This document shows, piece by piece, positions 11,592 through 64,000 of a stretch of DNA of 64,000 nt. How positions within the stretch are numbered: the first letter of the stretch is position 1; every line of letters begins with the position of its first letter. Source of the DNA: Aquipluma nitroreducens (lineage in GTDB: Bacteria > Bacteroidota > Bacteroidia > Bacteroidales > Prolixibacteraceae); contig NZ_AP018694.1 of NCBI RefSeq assembly GCF_009689585.1, positions 4,393,501-4,457,500 on the forward strand. Direction: 5' to 3'. Under the pieces are notes generated by a model. The model was not told where the DNA came from. It saw only the letters and a program-made list of their open reading frames with translations, and did not search any database. Both the position numbers and the translations under genes were made by a program.

Positions 11592-12335
11592 ATGGAAAAG
11601 TATCAGGAACAAATCAGCATTAAGTCCTATCACACGAATCAATACGGACAGGCATCCATTTCCTCATTGTTCAATATTCTGATTGAAGCCGCCTGGGCGC
11701 ATGCTCAGGTCATGGATTGGGGATACGACAGTTTGAAAAGTAATAATCTGTTTTGGGTATTGTCGCGCATGTATTTTCAGGTCGAAAAATACCCTTCCTG
11801 GCAGGATGAAATAACGCTGAATACCTGGTCGGCTGGAACGGATGGCATGTATGCTTACCGTGAATACATTGTTGAAAATGACAAAGGTGAAGTGATTTTA
11901 CGCGCCAGTTCTGCCTGGTTGATTTTGGATATGGAAACACGCAAAATATTCAGGTTAAATGATTTCAGAGATACTTTTCCAAAGCGAATTGATGCGAATG
12001 CCTGTCGGGCACCGAAACGGATAAAACCCGATGCTCATTCTGAAACTTTGAATTATTATCCAGTTTTATTTAGCGAACTGGATATTAATCAGCATTTTAA
12101 TAGTGTGAAATATGTGGAGCGAGTGCTGGACGATTTTGGGATAGATTTTTTGAATGCCCACGAACCTGCCGAGTTAGAAGTTAATTATCTGAAAGAAGGG
12201 CAGGCGGGCGACTGGATTGCTGTAACCAACACCAAACTATCAGAATCGGAAAGCCTGAATTGCCTGGTTCGCCAGTCGGATGGCGCCGATTTGTGCGTGA
12301 TGCGAATTGTTTGGAGGGAAAGAGTAAATTGCTAA
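11592..12335 (+). CDS. acyl-ACP thioesterase
   Basis: 247-residue double-hotdog acyl-ACP thioesterase (FatA/FatB-like bacterial family), releasing free fatty acids from acyl-carrier protein. The first hotdog carries IEAAWAHAQVMDWGYDSL and WVLSRMYFQVEKYPSWQDEI followed by TWSAG; the second contains the DINQHFNSVKYVERVLD helix with the catalytic Asn-His pair. Such enzymes are widespread in Bacteroidota and are thought to set membrane or sphingolipid acyl supply. It is transcribed divergently from map. Confidence 0.93.
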   Translation: MEKYQEQISIKSYHTNQYGQASISSLFNILIEAAWAHAQVMDWGYDSLKSNNLFWVLSRMYFQVEKYPSWQDEITLNTWSAGTDGMYAYREYIVENDKGEVILRASSAWLILDMETRKIFRLNDFRDTFPKRIDANACRAPKRIKPDAHSETLNYYPVLFSELDINQHFNSVKYVERVLDDFGIDFLNAHEPAELEVNYLKEGQAGDWIAVTNTKLSESESLNCLVRQSDGADLCVMRIVWRERVNC

Positions 12336-12337
12336 AT

Positions 12338-12404
12338 GGTTAAATTGTTGGTGGGTTTGTATGACCTTAATCTTTATAGCAATTAAACCATACAACAATT
12401 AACC
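12338..12404. terminator. imperfect inverted repeat between convergent genes
   Basis: Left arm 12338-12358 and right arm 12385-12404 form a long imperfect stem (GGTTAA / TTAACC outer, GGTTT / AAACC inner). It lies between the thioesterase stop and the HigA-like stop and could end both transcripts. Confidence 0.5.
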
Positions 12405-12410
12405 CCTTCA

Positions 12411-12710
12411 TTAAGCGGCATTTCCTTCTATTGGCTTAATTTCGTTCAATACATTTTCTTTTTGAGTTCCTTCTTCTTCCAAATCGTAATCATTTTGTAA
12501 CCCAAGCCAAAATCGAGGTGAATTTCCGAAAAATTTGGAAAGGCGAAGTGCTGTGTCTGCTGTGATTCTTCTGTTTCCCTTTATTATTTCGCTAACTCTG
12601 GTTTGAGGAATAAAAGTTTCTTTGGCCAGCCGGTAGGCTGAGATGCCAAGTGGAATTAAAAACTCTTCATTTAATATTTCTCCGGGGTGTATGTTTTTTA
12701 GCTTTTCCAC
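12411..12710 (-). CDS. higA: HigA-type XRE antitoxin, apparently without a toxin partner
   Basis: 99 residues with the VapI/HigA signature: HPGEILNEEFLIPLGISAYRLA at the N-terminus, then a helix-turn-helix (IPQTRVSEIIKGNRRITADTALRL) and the FFGNSPRFWLGLQNDYDL motif. HigA proteins normally follow a roughly 90-codon HigB RNase gene. The position where higB should be, upstream on the minus strand, holds only about 60 bp before an unrelated lipoprotein gene, so this copy looks orphaned or the gene acts as a stand-alone repressor. Confidence 0.9.
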   Translation of the reverse strand: MEKLKNIHPGEILNEEFLIPLGISAYRLAKETFIPQTRVSEIIKGNRRITADTALRLSKFFGNSPRFWLGLQNDYDLEEEGTQKENVLNEIKPIEGNAA

Positions 12711-12770
12711 ATCTGTTCTTTTTTATATGTTAGTCAAGGATTTTAACGTTAACCGGAACATTGATTCTTC

Positions 12771-13130
12771 CTAATTATTTATTTTTTCCGCTTTTATTAC
12801 ATAGATCCAAGGATAAGAAGGGCCCATTGCAGTGCATGCTCCTAATTCCGAATCTTGTATTTTTCTTATGTCAAGCTTGATTTTTATTCCAGATTGCTGC
12901 AGCTCAATAGGTAGGTTTTTTGCAATATAAATGCCGTCTAAAGTTGTGCTGCCAACAATCATTTTCACCTTATCCAGTTCAGAAGTAAATTTAATTGAAA
13001 ATACCCCACAATCCGGATTACTACCCAATACTTCTGCTTGAAGCTGGAATGTATTTGGGTCATTATTTTCTTCGTGACAATTCGAAAAAAGTAAAACGAT
13101 CAGGATTGAAATAAAAAGATTTGTTTTCAT
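12771..13130 (-). CDS. small lipoprotein, unknown function
   Basis: From the ATG at 13130 the product is 119 residues: MKTNLFISILIVLLFSNC is a lipoprotein signal with LFSNC as the lipobox, followed by an acidic stretch and a short beta-rich domain with two further cysteines (PDCGVFSI, LGACTAMG). An in-frame ATG 18 bp earlier (13148) would add six residues ahead of the signal and is less likely. I do not recognise the family. It lies between miaA and the HigA gene on the same strand. Confidence 0.75.
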   Translation of the reverse strand: MKTNLFISILIVLLFSNCHEENNDPNTFQLQAEVLGSNPDCGVFSIKFTSELDKVKMIVGSTTLDGIYIAKNLPIELQQSGIKIKLDIRKIQDSELGACTAMGPSYPWIYVIKAEKINN

Positions 13131-13188
13131 CGGAAGCAGTATTTTCAAAGTAGATGATTAGTTCATCCAAATGGTTGCTTAATCCCTT

Positions 13189-14118
13189 TTATATCTTTCT
13201 GTAACATTCCAATATCTTTTCAACCTTTTCATCCAAAGGCATAAATCCATCAAGCCAATGAATTTTTGTTCCTTGGTTTTCCATCCGTCGGAACCAGGTC
13301 ATCTGGCGTTTGGCAAACTGGTGAATGGCCACATTTAAACCGTCGAACATTTGTTGATATGTGAGTTGTCCGGTCAGGTGTTGAGTCATGTATTTATATT
13401 CCAGTCCGTAGTAAGTTAATTGTTCCGGAGTTAAACCGCTATCGAGTAACCGCTGAACCTCATCTAGCATTCCTTCTTTCAGTCGTTGTTTAAGTCGGCT
13501 GGTTATGCGTTTCCGGCGCGAATCACGATCAAATTTGACGCCAACCACCAAACTTCTGATTTCGGGCATTCCGGTGTCAATTTCAGGGTGAGTCAGGTAG
13601 TATTCTTCAATTTCGATGGCACGTATGACACGTTTCACACTTTCCGTATCGGTTTGGTTGTGCAGGTAGTTTTTGTAGCCTTTCAAAATCAATTCCAGTT
13701 CCCACAATAATTTATCGTCCAGTTCTTCGCGAAGTTTTTCGTTTACCGGAACCTGAATCAGCTTGTAGTTTTTCAGGATAGCTTCCAGGTATAAACCACT
13801 TCCGCCACACATCACCGGCAGTTTTCTGCGCTCGCTGATGTCGGCAAAAACCTTCAAAAAATCTTTCTGGTATTCATAAACATTGTACTCGTAACCCGCG
13901 TCAACAATGTCGATCAGATGATACGGAACCGGCTTGCCATCGACAATATAGTCGGCGTAATCCTTTCCTGTCCCGAGATCCATTCCGCGGTAAACCTGTC
14001 GTGAATCGGCAGAGATCACTTCGCCGTCGAGAGCCGATGCAACTTTGGCTGCTACGCTGGTTTTTCCTGAAGCTGTTGGCCCAAGAATGGTAATTAGGTT
14101 ATATTTTTCGTTGTGCAT
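13189..14118 (-). CDS. miaA: tRNA dimethylallyltransferase
   Basis: Adds a dimethylallyl group to A37 of tRNAs that read codons starting with U. 309 residues, the normal size. Seen: P-loop GPTASGKTSVAAKVA, DSRQVYRGMDLGTGK with the catalytic aspartate, GGSGLYLEAIL, and the FDGLNVAIHQFAKRQMTWFRR region near the C-terminus. The gene stands alone on the minus strand with no obvious operon partners. Confidence 0.96.
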   Translation of the reverse strand: MHNEKYNLITILGPTASGKTSVAAKVASALDGEVISADSRQVYRGMDLGTGKDYADYIVDGKPVPYHLIDIVDAGYEYNVYEYQKDFLKVFADISERRKLPVMCGGSGLYLEAILKNYKLIQVPVNEKLREELDDKLLWELELILKGYKNYLHNQTDTESVKRVIRAIEIEEYYLTHPEIDTGMPEIRSLVVGVKFDRDSRRKRITSRLKQRLKEGMLDEVQRLLDSGLTPEQLTYYGLEYKYMTQHLTGQLTYQQMFDGLNVAIHQFAKRQMTWFRRMENQGTKIHWLDGFMPLDEKVEKILECYRKI

Positions 14119-52050: not shown

Positions 52051-52412
52051 TAAATAGTTCTCATTTTATATTTAGCTAAAACCTATCGTTTATCGGTAGG
52101 TTTTTTTTGTCTCTGATTTTTGATTCGGCGAAGGCTGGATTTCGGCTTATTTCGGTTTTTTTCATCTTTTTTTGAACTATTTTGCCTGTTTCAGAGCGAT
52201 AAAATGCGAAAATTGAATTTTTATGAACTGAAGTGATGATATATTCAACAGATGTAAAAAATATATGCAGTTGTGTTAAGTGATAGTAAATGAGATTGAT
52301 AGATTCAATTTGGTGTATATGTGTTGAAAAAATATACAATATGCTCTGCTTTGTTTTTAATCGTATAATAGTTAAAGTGCAGTATTATAGGCTTTTGTGT
52401 TGTGTTTTCTAA
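52051..52412. other. upstream region of the redox operon
   Basis: Terminator of the previous gene, then AT-rich DNA with a TGTATAT/ATATACA inverted pair (52312-52318 and 52332-52338) about 80-100 bp upstream of the sigma-54-like promoter, a distance usual for enhancer sites. Confidence 0.4.
52078..52109 (+). terminator. terminator of the sugar isomerase-like gene
   Basis: AAAACCTATCG with CGGTAGGTTT (one G-U-type mismatch), 5-nt loop, followed by eight T's. Confidence 0.75.
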
Positions 52413-52413
52413 G

Positions 52414-52430
52414 TTGGCACTGGATTTGGA
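52414..52430 (+). promoter_or_regulatory. candidate sigma-54 (RpoN) promoter of the redox operon
   Basis: TTGGCAC (52414-52420), 5-nt spacer, TTTGG (52425-52429): the -24 element is perfect (TGGCAC) and the -12 element has the right spacing but ends GG where GC is expected. It lies 35 bp ahead of the first start codon. The downstream operon encodes an NtrC-type activator, which fits. Confidence 0.65.
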
Positions 52431-52464
52431 TTCCCTTGTATTATCATTTTAAAAGGGAAAAATC

Positions 52465-54156
52465 ATGAAAACCAGGATCTTTTTAATCGTCGCATTTCTT
52501 CTATTAAATTGCCTTTATTCAAAAAGTAAAGAAGCTTCTTCGGGAGGTTCTGATTCGTTGTCAGGTTCAATAAATGTAACTACTTCTCCGGAATTGTACG
52601 ACCTGACGATGAAGTGGGCAAATGAATACAGCAGACTGAATCCAACACAGAAAATCACTGTGAGTAAAGCTTCAGAAAATACGGTTTCAGAAATAATTAG
52701 TTCCGGAGAATTGGGGATCGTATCTGAAGAGTTCTATCATAAATTAAACAATTCTTCAACGCGGAGTATGGTTGTTGGTCGGGATGTGATTGTTCCGGTT
52801 ATGAGCTCCAAAAATCCTCTATTGAACGAGATTTGTCTTAAAGGGATTACAACAAAAGATTTGTCACAAATTATTTCAAACCCTGAAAATAAAAGTTGGG
52901 GAGATCTCATAGGTGGTGCTCAAAAGACTCCAATCCATTTTTATACAGCCAACGATCAATCAGCCGTATCGGTATTGAGAAGTTTACAGAATTTGCATCA
53001 ACCATTCAGTACTGGGATTCAAACAGCTGGCACAGCCGAAATGATTCTGGCCATTCAAAACGATCCGAATGCTCTCGGCTTTTTTAACCTGACACAAATT
53101 GCTGACCCAAACAATAAAAATCTTCTGGAAGGATTGAGATTCGTTCCGATCGATAAAAACGGGAATGGAAAGATCGATTACATGGAAAACATATACACCG
53201 ATATTGAATCGTTCTCAAGAGGTGTGTGGATCGGAAAATACCCAAAAGCTTTAACATCCAATATTTATTCTGTTTCGTCGTCGAATCCAAATAACACTTC
53301 AGAAGTTGCATTTCTGAAATGGGTGCTCACCGATGGCCAGAGTTTCCTGAATGAAAATGGTTATAGCAATCTAGTTTACAATGAACGACTTGCCCAATTG
53401 GGAAAATTCGGACAGCCAGATTTGTATGCCACTGTTCCCGTTGAACGTACAAGTTCATTGTTGTCAGTGTTGCTTTTGATCTTGGTTTTCATTGTTATAA
53501 CAGGTGTTGTTGTTGAGTTGGTTTTTAGGGCATTTAGAAAAAGAAGTAAAGCCAGTCATGACTTTAAGCCAGTCTCAATGGGTGTTTTCAATGAAGAATC
53601 AGTAATTATTCCTAAAGGACTTTACTTTGGGAAAACTCACTCCTGGGCATTCATGAAAAAAAATGGGTCAGTAAAGATTGGAATTGATGATTTTCTGCAA
53701 CACATCACCGGCACGATTACCCGGGTTGAGTTAAAGCGTGCAGGTGAAACGGTTAAGAAAGGAGAGCTCCTGATGTCGATCATTCGGAAAGGAAAACTCC
53801 TGAACATTTATTCACCCATTTCAGGAACGATTACTGAAGTCAATGAAAATCTGGAATACAACTCTTCATTGCTAAATTCATCTCCATATTCTGAAGGTTG
53901 GGTCTATCTGATTGAGCCATTGAATTGGGGGCTTGAAATCCAGTATTTGTTGATTGCTGAGAAATATAAGGAAGCATTAAAGGATGAATTTGCTCGATTA
54001 AAAGACTTTTTTACATCGTTGATAAAAGCCAATTCTCTTGATTTTGCTTACGTTACCATGCAGGATGGCGGAGAACTTACTGACAATCCATTGGCTGAGC
54101 TTGAACCTGAAGTTTGGGATGATTTTCAGACAAAGTTTATTGATGCTTCAAAATAA
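52465..54156 (+). CDS. substrate-binding protein fused through a membrane helix to a GcvH-like domain
   Basis: 563 residues. Signal peptide (about 1-22) is followed by a PstS/ModA-like periplasmic binding domain to about 330 (VTTSPELYDLTMKWANEYSRL, ...DVIVPVMSSKNPL, FFNLTQIADPN). A strong membrane helix (LLSVLLLILVFIVITGVVVELVF, 333-358) leads to a cytoplasmic domain (about 378-520) with the glycine-cleavage H fold: KTHSWAFMKKNGSVKIGIDDF, LLMSIIRKGKLLNIYSPIS, ending SEGWVYLIEPLNW. The lipoyl-lysine ESVK motif is not conserved; see findings. The C-terminal tail QDGGELTDNPLAELEPEVW is shared with the protein at 56377. First gene of the redox operon. Confidence 0.8.
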   Translation: MKTRIFLIVAFLLLNCLYSKSKEASSGGSDSLSGSINVTTSPELYDLTMKWANEYSRLNPTQKITVSKASENTVSEIISSGELGIVSEEFYHKLNNSSTRSMVVGRDVIVPVMSSKNPLLNEICLKGITTKDLSQIISNPENKSWGDLIGGAQKTPIHFYTANDQSAVSVLRSLQNLHQPFSTGIQTAGTAEMILAIQNDPNALGFFNLTQIADPNNKNLLEGLRFVPIDKNGNGKIDYMENIYTDIESFSRGVWIGKYPKALTSNIYSVSSSNPNNTSEVAFLKWVLTDGQSFLNENGYSNLVYNERLAQLGKFGQPDLYATVPVERTSSLLSVLLLILVFIVITGVVVELVFRAFRKRSKASHDFKPVSMGVFNEESVIIPKGLYFGKTHSWAFMKKNGSVKIGIDDFLQHITGTITRVELKRAGETVKKGELLMSIIRKGKLLNIYSPISGTITEVNENLEYNSSLLNSSPYSEGWVYLIEPLNWGLEIQYLLIAEKYKEALKDEFARLKDFFTSLIKANSLDFAYVTMQDGGELTDNPLAELEPEVWDDFQTKFIDASK

Positions 54157-54203
54157 GGCTAAACATTATTTCAGGACTTAACTACCAAATAAATCATAAA
54201 GCT

Positions 54204-55061
54204 ATGAGTATAAATCGAAGAGGCTTTTTTGGCCTGCTGGGTGCAACCGGTATTACCCTTGCCATTGGTAAAAATACATTTGCATCGCCTAAGGATAAAA
54301 GTAATGTTGAGTTTTTCGGAGTTTTGTACGATTCAACCCGTTGCGTGGGCTGTCGAACCTGCGAATATGAATGTGCAGCTGCACATGCGCTTCCCGAACC
54401 ATTATCAGAAGTTGAACCAATTCGCAAAACAAATGAGACCTGCAATACCGTGGTTAATACATTTCAAACTACCAAAGGTGAGGTTTACATCAAGCGTCAG
54501 TGCATGCATTGCAACGAACCTGCCTGCGATGCTGCTTGCCTGACACAAGCCATGCATAAGAATGAAACAGGGCCCGTTACCTGGAATGGCGATAAATGTA
54601 TGGGATGTCGCTATTGTATGGTATCCTGTCCGTTTGATAGTCCTAAGTTTGAATTTCACAGTACAAATCCCAAAATTCAGAAATGTGATATGTGTTTCGA
54701 CCGGCAAAAAGCAGGTGAGAAACCGGTTTGTGTGACGAACTGCCCCAATGACGCGCTAATGTTTGGCACACGACGTGATTTGATTAAAGAGGCCCGTCGG
54801 AGAATCTACGAAAAACCTGATTTATACACAGATCACATTTATGGTGAACACGAGGTAGGAGGTACTGGATGGCTTTACCTTTCTCCGGTTCCGTTTGAAG
54901 AACTTGGTATGAATACCAACCTGCAACAATCATCTTATCCGTCATTGACTAAAGGATTCCTGTATAGTGTTCCTTCAGTCGATTTACTGCTACCACCGCT
55001 TTTGCTGGGCATTTACACAGCGACCAAAAACAAACAACATAAAGAAGACGACAATGAATAA
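54204..55061 (+). CDS. HybA-like 4[4Fe-4S] electron-transfer protein, Tat-exported
   Basis: 285 residues. Twin-arginine signal NRRGFFGLLGATGITLAIG (about 4-28). Cysteine motifs for four clusters: CVGCRTCEYECAAAH, CMHCNEPACDAAC, CMGCRYCMVSCPF and CDMCFDRQK with CVTNCPNDAL. A C-terminal hydrophobic segment (SVDLLLPPLLLGIYTA) anchors it. In CISM complexes this subunit carries electrons between a catalytic subunit and an NrfD-type membrane partner; that partner is the next gene, overlapping by 8 bp. Confidence 0.93.
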   Translation: MSINRRGFFGLLGATGITLAIGKNTFASPKDKSNVEFFGVLYDSTRCVGCRTCEYECAAAHALPEPLSEVEPIRKTNETCNTVVNTFQTTKGEVYIKRQCMHCNEPACDAACLTQAMHKNETGPVTWNGDKCMGCRYCMVSCPFDSPKFEFHSTNPKIQKCDMCFDRQKAGEKPVCVTNCPNDALMFGTRRDLIKEARRRIYEKPDLYTDHIYGEHEVGGTGWLYLSPVPFEELGMNTNLQQSSYPSLTKGFLYSVPSVDLLLPPLLLGIYTATKNKQHKEDDNE

Positions 55062-56277
55062 TCGGGTCTACTCCTTAGAAAATGAAAAAGAACATAAATT
55101 CAGATGGAAATTTTTGTTTAGCGAATTAAAGCCGAAAGGTAAATGGCTTACACCATTTAATATAATCTCAATTCCAATTATACTTTTAGGTATTTTCCTA
55201 ATTGTAATACGTTTCTGGAAAGGGCTGGGATCTGTTACGAACCTTACTCAGGATGTTCCGTGGGGATTATGGATCGGGTTTGATGTCGTTACAGGTGTTG
55301 CATTTGCCGGAGGTGCATATGTGGTCACTTTTATGGTTTACGTTCTGAATATGAAAAAATATCATCCGATTGTAAGGGCTACTGTACTGAACGGCTTTCT
55401 GGCTTACGCGTTTTACACAGGTGCATTACTGCTCGATTTAGGTCGGCCATGGCATGTTGTAAATCCTGTAATCGGGAATAGTTATGGAACCAGTTCTGTA
55501 TTGTTTTTAGTTGCCTGGCATTTTATACTTTACATGCTTGCCGAACTGATCGAGTTTTCGCCTGCTATTGCCGAATGGCTGGGATCGCGCCGAGCCCAAC
55601 GGATTCTTTCAGGAATGACCATTGCCGCTGTTATTTTCGGTATTACCTTGTCAACCCTGCATCAATCAGGTTTAGGAGCGCTTTATCTGATGGCCAAAGA
55701 AAAAATACATCCACTGTGGTATTCCGAGTTTATCCCTATTCTGTTTTTGGTTTCGAGTATTTTTGCCGGACTTTCAATGGTCATTTTTGAAGGGTCAATC
55801 AGTCACAAGGTATTTTCTGACCAAATCAGTGGAAAGAATCACCACTCGCAAAATGGTATCATTCACGGATTATCAAAAATATGTGCAGTTGCCATGTTTG
55901 CATATTTTTGTTTGCAATTCCTTGTTTTTCTTCATACCAAACGATGGGGTTTGTTAAATACTCCAATGGGCTATTGGTTTTTGCTTGAAATGATCGGATT
56001 TGTATTTATTCCAATGGTTATGTTTTTTTACAGCTATCGGACAAGTAATATTTTCCTGATACGATTTGCTGCAATCTTAACCATGATTGGAGTGGTACTA
56101 AATCGTTTGAATGTTACAGTGATTGGTTTCAGATGGGATGCGGCGGTACACTATGTTCCATCCTGGATGGAGATTGTTGTTACATTGGCCGTTATTTTTA
56201 CTGAAATCTGGATATTCAGGTGGGTTATTCGTCGCATGCCGGTGCTTAGGGAATCGCCTGCATGGGCTAAAGAATAA
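55054..56277 (+). CDS. NrfD/HybB-like membrane quinone-interacting subunit
   Basis: 407 residues from the ATG at 55054, which overlaps the ferredoxin stop by 8 bp. Multiple hydrophobic segments (about 9-10) typical of the NrfD/PsrC/HybB family: PWGLWIGFDVVTGVAFAGGAY, the LLDLGRPWHVVN segment, FYSYRTSNIFLIRFAAIL, and WMEIVVTLAVIFTEIWIF. The glycine-rich PWGLWIGFDV signature is diagnostic. These proteins exchange electrons with quinones. No Mo-bisPGD catalytic subunit lies nearby. Confidence 0.92.
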   Translation: MNNRVYSLENEKEHKFRWKFLFSELKPKGKWLTPFNIISIPIILLGIFLIVIRFWKGLGSVTNLTQDVPWGLWIGFDVVTGVAFAGGAYVVTFMVYVLNMKKYHPIVRATVLNGFLAYAFYTGALLLDLGRPWHVVNPVIGNSYGTSSVLFLVAWHFILYMLAELIEFSPAIAEWLGSRRAQRILSGMTIAAVIFGITLSTLHQSGLGALYLMAKEKIHPLWYSEFIPILFLVSSIFAGLSMVIFEGSISHKVFSDQISGKNHHSQNGIIHGLSKICAVAMFAYFCLQFLVFLHTKRWGLLNTPMGYWFLLEMIGFVFIPMVMFFYSYRTSNIFLIRFAAILTMIGVVLNRLNVTVIGFRWDAAVHYVPSWMEIVVTLAVIFTEIWIFRWVIRRMPVLRESPAWAKE

Positions 56278-56376
56278 AATCGATTAATCGACGACGGTTC
56301 TCTGAACTGGTTGAAATAGATAAAAGAAATTAATCAGCTGTCGCAATTATTTGAGCGATGGCACAAAATAATCGCA

Positions 56377-57147
56377 ATGGAAGGATTTACTTACAACAAC
56401 ATTTTCGAAATGAAAGGGATTGAATATTTGGCGATCGTTGCATTTTTCGCTATTCTGATTCCATTCTGGATATTTTTAAATAAAGAGGTGAAAACAAAGA
56501 AGAATGCTCAGAAATCGTTAGGAACTCTTACTCCTGATTCACTGAAAATTCCTCATGGATTGTTTTTTAGCCGGTTTCATACCTGGACTCACCTCGAAAG
56601 ATCTGGAGTTGCAAAAGTTGGACTCGATGATCTGTTGGTACACATTACCGGAGAAGTCACATTCAACAGACTTTTAGATTCGGGTGATCGGATTAAAAAA
56701 GGTGATTTTTTAGGCGAAATAGTTCAGAACGACAAACGGCTCAAAGTTTATTCGCCTATTTCCGGAAAAATAATGGAAACGAATTCAGTGCTCATTAAAA
56801 ATCCTGAATTGATGAACGAAGATCCCTACCTGAAAGGGTGGATATACAAAATTAAACCCACAAGTTGGGTGACCGATACGCAATCGTACTTTCTTGCCGA
56901 GGATGCCAGCCTATGGGCAAGGCAAGAGTTGACCAGATTCAAAGATTTTTTGAGCGAATCGATTGTTAAATATTCGCCTGACCCTTCGTCTGTAGTTTTG
57001 CAGGATGGTGGTGAATTGCGTGATCAACCGCTTTCAGAACTTTCAACTGAGATCTGGCAGGATTTCCAAACGGAATTTATGAGTAAAAAAGTATTGTGCC
57101 GACGCAAAAGCTGTTTTCGGGAACCAGATAAGTTAAAAAACGATTGA
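56377..57147 (+). CDS. membrane-anchored GcvH-like protein
   Basis: 256 residues: an N-terminal membrane helix (GIEYLAIVAFFAILIPFWIFL, about 14-34), then a GcvH-like domain (HTWTHLERSGVAKVGLDDLL, EIVQNDKRLKVYSPIS, NEDPYLKGWIYKIKPTSW) and the shared tail VLQDGGELRDQPLSELSTEIW. It is the paralogue of the C-terminal half of the protein at 52465. The last 20 residues (SKKVLCRRKSCFREPDK...) look unlike the rest. The lipoyl-lysine position is again not canonical. Confidence 0.8.
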   Translation: MEGFTYNNIFEMKGIEYLAIVAFFAILIPFWIFLNKEVKTKKNAQKSLGTLTPDSLKIPHGLFFSRFHTWTHLERSGVAKVGLDDLLVHITGEVTFNRLLDSGDRIKKGDFLGEIVQNDKRLKVYSPISGKIMETNSVLIKNPELMNEDPYLKGWIYKIKPTSWVTDTQSYFLAEDASLWARQELTRFKDFLSESIVKYSPDPSSVVLQDGGELRDQPLSELSTEIWQDFQTEFMSKKVLCRRKSCFREPDKLKND

Positions 57148-57207
57148 TTTTTTTTGATGAAATTGTCTGTCTAAAAGTTCTAAATGATTGATAATTTGGT
57201 GTCTGAT

Positions 57208-57239
57208 AAGAAAGCGATGAGAGAAATCATCGCTTTCTT
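57208..57239 (+). terminator. hairpin terminator after the GcvH-like gene
   Basis: AAGAAAGCGATGA (57208-57220), loop GAGAAA, TCATCGCTTTCTT (57227-57239) then GATTTTT. It separates the redox operon from the two-component genes. Confidence 0.85.
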
Positions 57240-57380
57240 GATTTTTACTTCTGCGAATGAGTCTTATAGTCATTAAACATACAATTCGCTGAAACAAAAT
57301 CGGATAGTTGAGGCTGAATTTAAAATTTTGAGACTAAATTAGCATTCAGTAAATGGCTTTAAAATTTAATCCTATTTTTC

Positions 57381-59054
57381 ATGAATTGGTTTAAAAGAGT
57401 AGCAAAAAAAAATATTGCAGGAAGTCCAATAATTAGTCATTATGTGAAATTTCGCTCTTCAATTTACGGGAGAGTTGTTTTTATAATTGCTATTTTATCT
57501 GTTTTCCTTTTTGTATCATTCAATATTATTTTCCAGTCGGTTAACGAACAATATCTGAATACAATTATTCGTCAGAGCGGTAATAATATTGGATCAATTG
57601 TAGAAGGAGCGTTGTATCATTCGATGCTCCAGAACGATAAAAGTGCCCTTCAGAATACACTCGATATTATCAATACACTGCCTGGAATTGATGAGGTAAA
57701 CATGTATGATAGCCGTGATAGCCTGGTTTATTCATCATTTACTACCGATCCAAACGATAGTCACGCCGACCCGAATTGTCTCAGCTGCCATTCCAATATC
57801 CGGTCTTTGTTTCCGGGGACGGAGAAGTCGTATAAAATTATCGATATTAATACGGATTGTCTGATGAATAAAAGTGATAATGGCAGCAGACATTTGCTTA
57901 TTCGGTCGCCTATCATGAACGAAAGATCGTGTTATGTCAGTTCTTGTCATGCGCACGAGGCGACCGATACCTTGCTAGGTTCTCTTGTTATTAAAATTCC
58001 ACTTGAAGCTCAGGACAAAGCCATTCAGAAATCATCAACCGAGTTTTTCTTTTTGGCCATTTTGGCAACCATGCTGCTTGTTTCATTTTTGTTACTCTTC
58101 ACCCGTAAGAAAATTAAGAATCCGCTGAATGAATTGGTTAAGGTGAGCGTTGCAGTTGCCAATGGTGATACTAGTACCCGCCTTGATATAAAACCGAATC
58201 AGCTGGACGATATGCGGGTAGTTTCCGAAGCGTTTAACGACATGTTGGATAATCTACAAACTGCAACTGTTGAGTTGGAAAACTGGTCGCAGCAATTGGA
58301 ATATAAAGTTCAGAAAAAATCGGAGGAACTGGGTGCCGCTCAAAATGAACTGATGCATGTTGAGCGATTGGCTTCTTTGGGAAAATTATCATCATCTGTT
58401 GCACACGAAATCAATAATCCTTTATCCGGAATTTTGATTTACACAAAATTGCTTATGAAGCAGGTTGGTAATCCTGAACTGTACGCCTCCAAACGAGAGT
58501 CGATGCTTAAACATTTACGGTTGATTGAATCGGAAACAAAGCGTTGCGGCGACATTGTAAAAGGATTGCTTGATTTTTCGAGGAAAGATCAGAACGATTT
58601 TGAACCTAAACATTTACATGAAATATTGAAGGAAACTTATGAGTTAATGACTCATCCGATCAAAATTGCCGACATCAAATTTGAATACGATTTTGCAGCT
58701 AGTTCAGACCTGATTTATTGTAATCCGAACCAGATTAAACAGGCTTGTATTGCGATTCTGGTCAATGCTTCTGAAGCGATTAAGGAAAACGGTGAAATCA
58801 CGATCAAAACCAGGAATTTGGATGAGGAAACCATTTGTATTGATATTTCAGACAATGGTTTAGGTATTGCTGAAGAAGACATTTCCCATATTTTCGAACC
58901 GTTTTTCTCGACAAAACAAGATGTAAGCGGCATTGGTTTAGGCCTTGCGATTGTTCATGGCATTATTCAAAACCATAAAGGTAAAATTCAGGTAAACTCC
59001 GAGTTAGATCGGGGAACAACTATTTCAGTAAATTTACCATTGATAAAAAGTTAA
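57381..59054 (+). CDS. sensor histidine kinase with periplasmic haem-c-type motifs
   Basis: 557 residues. Membrane helices at about 32-51 and 221-240 enclose a periplasmic domain with CLSCH (133-137, a c-type haem motif) and CYVSSCH (184-190, CX4CH). A HAMP-like segment follows (about 241-295), a coiled coil, the HisKA domain with phosphoacceptor His342 in [13 protein letters not shown], and a HATPase domain with [19 protein letters not shown] and [12 protein letters not shown]. Likely a redox- or ligand-sensing kinase for the regulator encoded next, 12 bp downstream. Confidence 0.9.
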
Positions 59055-59060
59055 GGAGAT
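59053..59060 (+). promoter_or_regulatory. ribosome binding site of the response regulator
   Basis: TAAGGAGA immediately after the kinase stop, 7 bp before the ATG. A strong site for this phylum. Confidence 0.5.
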
Positions 59061-59066
59061 TGACGA

Positions 59067-60410
59067 ATGGCAAAAAAGATTTCAATATTGATCGTTGATG
59101 ATGAAGAATCGGTAAGAGATTCCTTATACAATTGGTTTCTTGAAGATGGATTTCATGTTGAATGTGCTGAAAACGCCAAAAGAGCGCTGACTATTCTTGA
59201 ATCTGACCAGTTTGACATCATTCTTGCTGACATTAAAATGCCGGGAATGGACGGTCTTGAAATGCTTCGGAGAATTAAATTAATTAAGCCTGATTCAATT
59301 GTTATTGTTATGACAGCATTTGCAACTGTAGATACAGCTGTAAAAGCACTGAAAGATGGAGCTTACGATTATGTAACCAAACCTTTTGATCCGGACGATT
59401 TGACTCATTTGATTCGAAACGCCACCAAACAAATCTCTCTGGTTGAGGAAAATGAAACATTAAAGCAAAAAGTAACTTCACTCGAAAATGTGGAAGACCT
59501 GATCGGAAAGAGTGAGGCTATGAAAGGCGTATTAAAGCAGGTTGAAAGCGTGGCCCAAACCAATTCTTCTGTTATTATTACTGGCGAAAGTGGCACAGGG
59601 AAGGAGCTTATTGCCCGTGCTATTCATGCCAATTCTCCACGAAAATTTTTCCCTTTTGTGAGTGTTCATTGCGGTGCATTAACCGAAAGTTTGCTTGAAA
59701 GTGAGTTGTTTGGTCACGAAAAGGGAGCTTTTACCGGTGCCATGTATAATCGTAAAGGCCGGTTCGAGATGGCTGACAGCGGTTCTATATTTTTAGACGA
59801 AATAGCAACGATTTCAACAAAAATGCAGGTTGAATTGCTTCGGGTTTTGGAATCAAAAACATTTATGCGGGTCGGTGGAAATAAGGAAATCAGTTCCGAT
59901 TTCAGGGTAATTTGTGCCACCAACAAAGATTTGAAAAGCATGGTTGAAAAGGGAACTTTCCGTGAAGACCTTTTTTACCGTTTAAATGTGGTAAACATCC
60001 AAATTCCGCCTCTGCGCGATCGCAAAGATGATATCCCATTATTGGTCAATTACTTTATAAACAAATATTGTACATCAATGAATAAACCTCCTGCATCAAT
60101 CGATCAGGCGGCATTAAATCGAATTCAGGAGTTTAATTTCCCTGGAAATATTCGCGAGCTTGAAAACATGATTGAGCGAGCCATCGTTGTCGGTAACGGG
60201 AAGAAAATAACGTTGAAAGATCTTCCGTTGGAAAAGACTTTTGTAAGTAATTCAGCCGAAAGTCTCGACGATTTTGAAAGGGCATTCATCCTTCAGATTC
60301 TTACTAAATACGAATGGAATATTTCGCGCACTGCCCGTGCATTAAAAGTTGATCGGGTGACTCTTTACAACAAAATCAAGAAATACGATTTGAAGTTGGC
60401 AGATCAATAA
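59067..60410 (+). CDS. sigma-54-dependent response regulator (NtrC family)
   Basis: 447 residues: receiver domain (1-120, phosphoacceptor Asp55 in ILADIKMPGMDG), AAA+ domain with Walker A GESGTGKELIA and the sigma-54 contact motif GAFTGAMYNRKG, and a C-terminal Fis-type helix-turn-helix (WNISRTARALKVDRVTLYNKIKK). It activates RpoN promoters on phosphorylation. The likely target is the sigma-54-type promoter at 52414 in front of the redox operon. Confidence 0.95.
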   Translation: MAKKISILIVDDEESVRDSLYNWFLEDGFHVECAENAKRALTILESDQFDIILADIKMPGMDGLEMLRRIKLIKPDSIVIVMTAFATVDTAVKALKDGAYDYVTKPFDPDDLTHLIRNATKQISLVEENETLKQKVTSLENVEDLIGKSEAMKGVLKQVESVAQTNSSVIITGESGTGKELIARAIHANSPRKFFPFVSVHCGALTESLLESELFGHEKGAFTGAMYNRKGRFEMADSGSIFLDEIATISTKMQVELLRVLESKTFMRVGGNKEISSDFRVICATNKDLKSMVEKGTFREDLFYRLNVVNIQIPPLRDRKDDIPLLVNYFINKYCTSMNKPPASIDQAALNRIQEFNFPGNIRELENMIERAIVVGNGKKITLKDLPLEKTFVSNSAESLDDFERAFILQILTKYEWNISRTARALKVDRVTLYNKIKKYDLKLADQ

Positions 60411-60419
60411 ACTTGCCAA

Positions 60420-60950
60420 ATGAACCTGCAAACCATTACTTTAGTTTCGTTCGGTTTCTTCGAAAAAGACATTTTAGAGAAGACAGCAGTGGCTGTGATT
60501 GAGGAATATCATTGCTCTGTCATTATTAAAGATGGACATCTGGATTTAAGTGAATATTACGATGCACCCCGTAGGCAATATGATGCGAACGCCTTGCTGA
60601 AACAGGTTCATTCCATGTCGTTCCCGGAATCGGATAAGAATCTTGGGATATTTAATGTCGATCTTTTTATTCCGATATTGACTTTTATTTTTGGACAAGC
60701 TTTTTTGGGCGGACAAACTGGGATTGCTTCGCTTTACAGGCTTAGTAATGAGCGGTATGGTATGGTTCATGACGAATTGTTGATGCTTGAACGGTTCAAA
60801 AAGGAGGTTATACACGAACTCGGACATACATTTGGTTTAATTCACTGTCAAAGTCCGATGTGTGTTATGCGTTCGAGTACTTATGTTGAAGACATTGACC
60901 AGAAAAGCGTGCATCTCTGCCGCGATTGCAAGTCTAAATTGGACATTTGA
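60420..60950 (+). CDS. amzA: archaemetzincin, zinc protease
   Basis: 176 residues. Metzincin zinc motif HELGHTFGLIHCQSPMCVM followed by RSSTYVEDIDQKSVHLCRDCKSKL with the structural CxxC, exactly the archaemetzincin arrangement. No signal peptide, so cytoplasmic. It starts 9 bp after the response regulator and is therefore co-transcribed. Substrates are not known for bacterial archaemetzincins. Confidence 0.92.
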   Translation: MNLQTITLVSFGFFEKDILEKTAVAVIEEYHCSVIIKDGHLDLSEYYDAPRRQYDANALLKQVHSMSFPESDKNLGIFNVDLFIPILTFIFGQAFLGGQTGIASLYRLSNERYGMVHDELLMLERFKKEVIHELGHTFGLIHCQSPMCVMRSSTYVEDIDQKSVHLCRDCKSKLDI

Positions 60951-63141: not shown

Positions 63142-63160
63142 CAGCACTAATCGATACACC

Positions 63161-64000
63161 ATGAGAACATTTCCACTATTAATATTATTTGTATTTGTTT
63201 GCAGCCTTTCGCTAATGGCTCAAAATGATTTAAGCAAAATGTTTGACGAACCAGTTCAGGCTAAAGAGCATATTCCGGTAACTGCAACCTTTAAGTCGCC
63301 GCAAATCATCAACGGGCAATCCAATGAAACAATGCACAAACACGATTTGCTTTTTGTGGTGATGCACCGGTTTGGTGACATTGCAGGAAGCTACGGGGGA
63401 ATGCAAACCTTTTATGGACTGGATAATTCTTCAGATATCCTTATTGGTTTTGATTATGGTATTTCCGATCGGTGGAGTTTTGGCATCGGAAGAACCAAAG
63501 GCGCGCCGAATGGTACGAATACCAGCCAGAAGCAATTGTTCTATTTGAAAACCAAGTATAGGCTATTGAGGCAATCAATTGATAATAGCATACCTTTTTC
63601 GGTAACTTTATTCGGTAACAGTGTTACCTCGGGAATGGACAGGCTGAACCTGATTACCTCCGACGCTGATTTTCAAAAATTCTCCGACCGGATGAGCTCT
63701 GTTACGCAGGTCATTATTGCCCGGAAATTCAACGATAACTTCTCACTTGCCTTGTTGCCAACTTATGTCCGGAGGAATTATGTATCCTATATGGACATGA
63801 ATAACCTTTACGGGCTGGGAATTGGCGGACGGCTGAAAGTGACGCACCGGATGACTGTTGTTGCCGATTATTTTTTGAGTTTCAGAAGTCAGGAGAGCAA
63901 AGATTATTTCCTTCAGCAAAGTGGATTCAGGTTTTACAATCCTCTTGGAATTGGCCTTGAAATGGAAACAGGCGGACATGTCTTTAATTTCATTTTTACC
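63161..64000 (+). CDS. DUF5777-like beta-barrel protein, truncated by the window end
   Basis: 280 codons visible without a stop. Signal peptide (about 1-21, VCSLSLMAQ), then FKSPQIINGQSNETMHKHDLLFVVMHRFGDIAGSYGGMQTFYGLDNSSDILIGFDYGISDRWSFGIGRT, typical of the DUF5777 outer-membrane barrel linked with YceI and cytochromes. Only the C-terminal end is missing. Confidence 0.82.
   Translation, partial: MRTFPLLILFVFVCSLSLMAQNDLSKMFDEPVQAKEHIPVTATFKSPQIINGQSNETMHKHDLLFVVMHRFGDIAGSYGGMQTFYGLDNSSDILIGFDYGISDRWSFGIGRTKGAPNGTNTSQKQLFYLKTKYRLLRQSIDNSIPFSVTLFGNSVTSGMDRLNLITSDADFQKFSDRMSSVTQVIIARKFNDNFSLALLPTYVRRNYVSYMDMNNLYGLGIGGRLKVTHRMTVVADYFLSFRSQESKDYFLQQSGFRFYNPLGIGLEMETGGHVFNFIFT

Follow-up and report, generated by a model that had tools for sequence, protein, structure and literature searches.

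Organization and conservation of the locus

A 64,000-nucleotide stretch of the Aquipluma nitroreducens genome (contig NZ_AP018694.1; hereafter the window) carries seven forward-strand open reading frames (ORFs) that lie head to tail between positions 52465 and 60950, and we report here an analysis of this locus, which probably encodes a membrane electron-transfer module together with its own control genes. Protein families were checked against Pfam and NCBIfam. The positions and domains given for the seven ORFs in an initial annotation of the window were borne out by the ORF list and by Pfam, which returned, in gene order, PBP_like_2 plus GCV_H, a 4Fe-4S ferredoxin, NrfD, GCV_H, HAMP/HisKA/HATPase, an NtrC-type regulator and M54. 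The first gene (52465-54156) encodes a 563-aa protein in which a PstS-like binding domain is followed by one membrane helix, a GcvH-like domain and a C-terminal tail. The second (54204-55061) encodes an HmcB-like protein of 285 aa with four [4Fe-4S] clusters and a start of the twin-arginine translocation (Tat) type, and the third (55054-56277) an HmcC-like membrane protein of the NrfD family, 407 aa long from the ATG at 55054. The fourth (56377-57147) encodes a membrane-anchored GcvH-like protein of 256 aa with the conserved tail LQDGGEL...W..FQ.EF. A terminator-like hairpin on the same strand (57207-57240; -19.7 kcal/mol, z -5.2) marks the boundary between these structural genes and the regulatory genes, and the gene spacing together with this hairpin makes it plausible that the structural genes are read in one transcript. 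Downstream of the hairpin are the genes for a histidine kinase of 557 aa whose N-terminal part bears the haem-c motifs CXXCH and CX4CH (57381-59054), an NtrC-family sigma-54 response regulator of 447 aa (59067-60410) and an archaemetzincin (peptidase M54) of 176 aa (60420-60950), which has an intact metal motif and, by eye, no evident signal peptide.

Relatives were found by using the NrfD-family protein to scan genomes, one for each species, and the best 80 of 115 loci were kept; nearly all come from Bacteroidetes/Bacteroidales metagenome genomes, with two labelled Chlorobiota and with strains of Draconibacterium and Maribellus. All seven genes were present in 52 of the 80 loci and stood in identical order in 51 of these 52, the exception (L034) having the kinase-regulator-protease block upstream, and the conservation of gene order to which the initial annotation had looked thus holds across genomes beyond chance. 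The remaining 28 loci were mostly cut near a contig end, which cannot explain the absent downstream genes in at least four of them (L043, L048, L049 and L069). We found no conserved flanking genes, the two most widespread neighbour families each occurring in only 8 of the 80 loci. Since the flanks are variable and the seven genes are kept together, the seven form a discrete unit, and in Bacteroidales no further gene has been shown to be part of it. Plasmid records gave 16 matches, every one below 60 percent identity.

The core made up of GcvH-like proteins, HmcB and HmcC (HmcBC), kinase, regulator and archaemetzincin is also kept in other classes of the phylum. When 395 genomes of the phylum were searched with an alignment of the GcvH-like domain plus its tail, 53 gave a match at E 1.3e-23 or better; ordinary GcvH proteins scored more weakly, and some of the 53 matches were receiver-sized frames. 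Archaemetzincin (PF07998) was found below E 1e-19 in 34 genomes, 32 of them among the 53 (Fisher 1e-30, a value that ignores kinship). The two outside (G184 and G373) belong to one genus, and G025, with archaemetzincin at E 1.1e-19, also lacks a GcvH-plus-tail match; conversely, 21 of the 53 had no archaemetzincin at that threshold. Among 20 other-class stretches picked by hand from the stronger GcvH-plus-tail matches, 12 carried HmcB, HmcC, kinase, regulator and archaemetzincin together, with two or three GcvH-like genes in ten and one in two according to the profiles, all encoding proteins of 208-301 aa without the fusion to a binding domain. A second kind of cluster, here called the sister cluster, was seen in five of the 20 (L149, L150, L151, L152 and L157) and contains HmcB, HmcC, a 13-haem cytochrome, a CXXCH kinase and receiver-type proteins; a variant in L153 has a frame with five CXXCH motifs. 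In L152, the sole sister cluster put to Pfam, the 13-haem cytochrome is of class III, and two receiver proteins with a C-terminal GcvH domain (12038-12844 and 12888-14048), one of them with an N-terminal membrane helix by eye, adjoin HmcB-HmcC, the cytochrome and the haem-motif kinase.

Promoter, putative activator repeats and regulatory proteins

Upstream of the first gene, TGGCACTGGATTTGG (52415-52429, forward strand) is the sole exact match within the window to the sigma-54 (-24/-12) consensus TGGCAY-N5-TTGR. Sigma-54-like sites with at most two mismatches were present in the 510 bases around the first-gene start in 58 of 67 relatives, compared with 204 of 1000 random stretches of equal length, while upstream of the kinase such a site was found in 13 of 66 relatives, which is not above random. 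Together with the folding of the hairpin, the promoter match upholds the sigma-54 control and the terminator that had been proposed for this locus. We aligned 61 promoters (60 relatives and the window) on the sigma-54 site, by which they had been selected, so that the site columns are conserved by selection. The inverted repeat GTGTTGA-N5-TCAACAC, allowing up to 4 mismatches in 14, was present in all 61, with a count of 167 repeats; shuffling each promoter once by mononucleotides left 4. The repeats cluster at about -182, -163 and -94, or the whole set is shifted by about 10 bp, one helical turn, and some lie at about -70 or -60. The window carries, on the forward strand, a putative activator-binding site at -182 from the -24 element (GTGATGATATATTCAACAG, 52233-52251), a position common to many relatives, and another at -94 (GTGTTGAAAAAATATACAA, 52321-52339), and the regulator encoded by the module would be the protein that binds them. 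In a search of the genome of A. nitroreducens with half-site and promoter patterns, which promoters with other spacing would escape, 13 and 10 matches were obtained and only this operon had activator sites above the score threshold; no second target acting in trans was found within the patterns used. The activator pattern alone was rejected as a regulon finder because it is too degenerate, giving 151 matches on both strands against 88 for the control, only 30 of the listed places (23 loci) having been fetched and scored. Among the stretches from other classes, 8 of 15 type-1 or partial clusters and none of 6 clusters of the sister kind matched a loosened sigma-54 pattern close to their first structural gene, and similar inverted repeats occurred in some, both observed without a control.

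The haem motifs that the initial annotation had noted in the kinase are conserved: CXXCH was found in 64 of 64 aligned sequences, the window included, and CX4CH in 61 of 64, and these motifs make redox sensing by the kinase plausible. The regulator has the receiver, AAA+ and Fis-type HTH domains of an NtrC-family sigma-54 activator by Pfam. The protease passes the curated archaemetzincin cut-off (NF033823; 161.7 bits, cut-off 145), and the motif HEXXHXXGXXHCX4CXM...CXXC is present in 53 of 56 and in 12 of 12 sequences, confirming that it is an archaemetzincin.

Predicted electron-transfer subunits, GcvH-like proteins and candidate partners

The iron-sulfur and membrane subunits had been named as HybA/HybB-like. 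The homology stands and the naming does not, since the HmcB and HmcC families outscore them: the iron-sulfur protein reached 327 of 420 bits with HmcB (NF045715) vs 223 of 263 bits with HybA, and the membrane protein 400 of 550 bits with HmcC (NF045714) vs 259 of 450 bits with HybB, each value lying below its cut-off. Because the scores fall under the equivalog cut-offs, the pair is best described from its sequences as Hmc-like, not as Hmc. The membrane protein belongs to the NrfD superfamily (PF03916; 57 bits, cut-off 25.8). Fifteen of the 16 cluster cysteines of the iron-sulfur protein are kept in 79 of 79 sequences and one in 78 of 79, as in a four-cluster ferredoxin of the HybA/HmcB kind. 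Residues of HybB discussed in a review of the NrfD family (PMC8076601) were mapped onto 80 sequences. According to that review, D109 is the quinone protonation residue, S129 is a serine found in every quinone-interacting member, R329 connects the two half-channels, and H2 oxidation falls when R89, Y99, E148 or H184 is mutated. All seven residues are kept in 79-80 of the 80 sequences, and D109, S129 and R329 in all 80. No solved structure related to the NrfD-family protein was found by sequence.

As the initial annotation had it, two of the proteins carry a GcvH-like domain, and what distinguishes them is the lack of the lipoyl lysine: in our alignments, lysine occupies the lipoyl column in 1 of 76, 0 of 68 and 2 of 34 GcvH-like sequences, most Bacteroidales sequences having glycine there followed by lysine, and the GcvH-like domains have therefore lost this residue. 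With the curated gcvH family the two proteins scored 71.3 and 81.7 of 115.85 bits, short of the lipoyl H-proteins. A structure model of the 256-aa protein (predicted local distance difference test, pLDDT, 79.7) has the H-protein fold, and one of the 563-aa fusion (pLDDT 78.6; predicted template modelling score, pTM, 0.49) has the PstS and H-protein folds. Both proteins are anchored in the membrane by one helix, and the charged flank of this helix, judged by eye under the positive-inside rule, suggests that the GcvH-like domains are cytoplasmic. The binding domain of the fusion resembles PstS and is poorly conserved (curated PstS, TIGR02136, 44.7 of 206.6 bits, which leaves it outside that family); this poor conservation leads us to doubt that it binds phosphate. 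An EF-hand-like loop, DKNGNGKIDYME, lies at residues ~230-241 of this protein and is largely kept in relatives.

The initial annotation had pointed to the lack of a catalytic subunit of the complex iron-sulfur molybdoenzyme (CISM) or NiFe hydrogenase kind near the module, and this holds in the relatives' flanks. At E 1e-5, BLAST returned no homologue of PsrA, NarG, HybC or HybO among the ORFs of 100 loci, namely the 80 relatives (which together bring 660 kb of flank, 41 of them having 3 kb or more on either side) and the 20 other-class stretches, in a search that used the PsrA-like and NarG-like proteins of the same genome and Escherichia coli HybC and HybO as queries and that was not a profile test and had no positive control. 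Neither finding that the initial annotation had named as refuting its reading, a catalytic subunit encoded just outside the module or an unconserved gene order, was made within the reach of these searches. Scores under the cut-offs and the NiFe subunits not found by BLAST also keep the pair outside HybA/HybB proper. The genome itself has three molybdopterin matches, and the two loci that were opened, one NarG-like and one PsrA-like, each have their own iron-sulfur and membrane-anchor genes, as judged from ORF starts by eye. On contig 1, a pair of NarG matches that score identically lies 17.3 kb apart (4756124 and 4773454), through duplication or an assembly artefact. The known partner of HmcB and HmcC is the multihaem cytochrome HmcA, which NCBIfam likewise names as a multihaem cytochrome family. 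The expectation of a molybdenum or NiFe catalytic subunit is accordingly not supported, the nearest families being HmcB and HmcC with a multihaem cytochrome as partner, and the apparent gap left by a catalytic subunit is largely a matter of how the pair was named. None of the seven genes encodes a multihaem cytochrome, and in this respect the operon is not of the HmcA type.

Two multihaem cytochrome clusters lie elsewhere in the genome. One of them (L173) encodes a tetrahaem c554-like protein of 163 aa, a NapC-like 6-haem protein of 500 aa, a 7-haem protein and a protein of 960 aa that combines 19 CXXCH motifs with a b-type C-terminus; this 960-aa protein is called CbcL-like here from the description of CbcL in PMC6295460, not from a comparison with CbcL. 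At L174 (6501-10564) of the same genome, adjacent proteins with 20 and 33 CXXCH motifs stand beside the gene of an iron-sulfur-like protein. A DUF5777 membrane barrel is encoded near the module (window 63155-64000), and it has one homologue adjoining the cluster with the CbcL-like protein (L173, 13161-14081) and one upstream of the module in L039 (272-1135).

Proposed mechanism and comparison with known systems

Taken together, these results favour, with a probability of roughly 0.6, a self-contained, inducible module of the Hmc/NrfCD kind for electron transfer between quinone and periplasmic cytochromes. The NrfD-family protein would exchange electrons with the menaquinone pool, probably along with protons, and the Tat-exported four-cluster protein would relay them at the periplasmic face, carrying electrons to and from multihaem c-type cytochromes; electron flow could run either way. 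The likeliest partners in the same genome would be the tetrahaem c554-like, CbcL-like multihaem/b and NapC-like 6-haem proteins of the one separate cluster. The haem-motif kinase may respond to a haem ligand or to the redox state of the periplasm and phosphorylate the NtrC-type regulator, which would bind the phased inverted repeats, fire the sigma-54 promoter and so turn on the four structural genes. Both membrane-anchored, lipoate-free GcvH-like proteins could serve as docking or control adaptors on the cytoplasmic side, and the archaemetzincin may belong to this control path, cutting one of the proteins of the module.

The quinone:cytochrome reading rests on HmcB and HmcC as top families, on the kept cysteines and key HybB residues, on the 13-haem cytochromes of the sister clusters and on the co-occurrence of the module with cytochromes. 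Also in its favour are the negative BLAST search for catalytic subunits in the 100 loci, the activator and promoter architecture seen at no other place among the pattern matches of the genome, and the CXXCH motif of the aligned kinases. Among 149 genomes of the order, 19 count as having the module, for which a GcvH-tail match at E 1e-25 served as the marker. The tetrahaem protein was found in 11 of the 149, and 10 of these 11 have the module (p 9e-10; 6e-9 without the genome of A. nitroreducens itself); the CbcL-like protein was found in 12, of which 10 have it (p 5e-9; 3e-8), and PF09699 was matched in 29, of which 15 have it (p 1e-9; 6e-9), p values that ignore phylogeny and genome completeness, which tempers their weight. 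Homologues of the L173 cytochromes stand in or beside the module or the sister cluster in five of the 100 loci: the tetrahaem protein in L039, L138, L150 and L154, the CbcL-like protein in L039, L147 and L150, and the NapC-like protein in L154.

Several observations weigh against this reading. The other 95 loci have no nearby homologue of these cytochromes, and of the 19 genomes with the module, 9 lack the tetrahaem protein, 9 lack the CbcL-like protein and 8 lack both; four of these 8 (G487, G496, G522 and G526) also have no PF09699 match at E 1e-3. Since 8 of 19 genomes have neither protein and 95 of 100 loci have no such cytochrome nearby, the partners vary or lie elsewhere. The initial annotation's membrane electron-transfer module is supported, and its 'unknown partner' can be narrowed to multihaem cytochromes with no single obligatory one. 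Among the six residues listed for the quinone site of HybB, S105, E133 and S190 are replaced in 80 of 80 sequences and D58 in 14; for the half-channels, 13 of the 19 listed residues are conserved in 72 or more of the 80. Finally, although the HmcB of the window has a Tat-type start, as do those of Bacteroidales and of the sister clusters, HmcB lacks a Tat signal in 10 of the 12 complete other-class modules, which would place the clusters in the cytoplasm, and the iron-sulfur protein may have switched membrane side within one type of module. HmcB proteins without Tat signal were recorded in L138, L139, L140, L141, L142, L143, L145, L151, L154 and L156. In trees, the HmcB and HmcC of the window group with L146, L147 and L153, apart from the non-Tat other-class proteins.

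The receiver proteins of L152, in which the GcvH domain would itself be the output of a receiver, lead to a tentative proposal, against which we would still place the odds: lipoate-free GcvH-fold proteins could be a switch that couples the haem-sensing two-component system to the activity of the quinone-reactive complex, and not only to its expression, with the archaemetzincin resetting the switch by proteolysis. The same two proteins, lying beside a haem-motif kinase, would also suit a redox signalling device in which HmcB and HmcC inform the GcvH-like proteins and the kinase of the state of the quinone pool, with little electron flux. Two observations fit such a device: the patterns used revealed no further target of the regulator, and kinase, regulator and protease stay with the module in 12 of 20 other-class stretches. 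We nevertheless regard it as unlikely, since the cluster cysteines are conserved, as are the residue that protonates quinone and the half-channel residues tested, and the multihaem cytochromes adjoining HmcBC in sister clusters and some relatives suit electron flux. Less probable still is a transmembrane conduit to the cytoplasm, in which the GcvH-like domains would dock a soluble oxidoreductase, as with LbpA and Hdr-like enzymes, and couple it to the quinone pool. The predicted cytoplasmic side of both domains and the Tat-less HmcB of other classes agree with it, and the Hdr-like pathway requires a GcvH-like protein (PMC6067878), but LbpA retains the lysine (PMC6067878) that all but one of the 76 and all of the 68 sequences lack, no neighbouring gene family occurs in more than 8 of 80 loci, and the HmcB of the window has its Tat-type start. 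An orphan CISM or hydrogenase module served by a molybdenum or NiFe catalytic subunit encoded elsewhere, the earlier reading, is highly improbable despite the HybA/HybB homology and the Tat-type start, given the BLAST result in the 100 loci (a NiFe hydrogenase was not sought genome-wide) and the dedicated iron-sulfur and anchor genes at the two opened molybdopterin loci.

The locus bears on how Bacteroidota without a terminal reductase beside NrfD-type subunits may reach multihaem cytochromes, and it joins in one testable place the role of archaemetzincin in bacteria and that of a lipoate-free GcvH-like protein. The relatives are mostly metagenome-assembled, but Draconibacterium orientale and Maribellus strains are listed among them, which may open the module to deletion and assay. 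If the GcvH fold does prove to be a control element, respiratory complexes would gain a regulatory part that is not described in the passages of the literature compared here.

Among known systems, the Hmc complex of sulfate reducers was compared through HmcB, HmcC and the HmcA-type cytochrome. The module resembles it in having HmcB and HmcC as top curated families for the iron-sulfur and membrane subunits, and the 13-haem cytochrome of the sister clusters, class III in the one tested, sits where HmcA would be; the module differs in falling under both equivalog cut-offs, in having no multihaem cytochrome gene, and in adding GcvH-like proteins, a haem-motif kinase, a sigma-54 regulator and an archaemetzincin. 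NrfCD pairs without a molybdopterin subunit are stated to donate to periplasmic multihaem cytochromes in Melioribacter roseus (PMC3534657) and are proposed to feed multihaem cytochromes in an MBNT15 bacterium (PMC9386147). These systems, including Mros1571-1572 of M. roseus, share with the module an iron-sulfur and NrfD pair without a CISM catalytic subunit, whereas a GcvH-like protein, a kinase/regulator pair and an archaemetzincin go unmentioned in the passages that describe them, a comparison by description and not by gene neighbourhood. With HybA/HybB of hydrogenase-2 the module shares the 16 cluster cysteines and R89, Y99, D109, S129, E148, H184 and R329, and it differs in the 27.7 percent identity of its NrfD-family protein to HybB and in the lack of a HybO or HybC homologue by BLAST in the 100 loci. 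A GcvH-like protein that serves electron transfer is known from Hdr-like sulfur oxidation, with the lipoyl lysine kept (PMC6067878); GcvH and LbpA have in common with the proteins of the window the H-protein fold predicted in both models, and the latter are unlike them in the absent lysine, the membrane anchor and the extra C-terminal tail. The archaemetzincin passes the cut-off of the M54 family with its metal motif intact, and differs in being here a stable part of a two-component and electron-transfer locus; in our searches of the open-access literature, no paper tying archaemetzincin to such a locus turned up, and titles and abstracts held no description of the seven-gene module.

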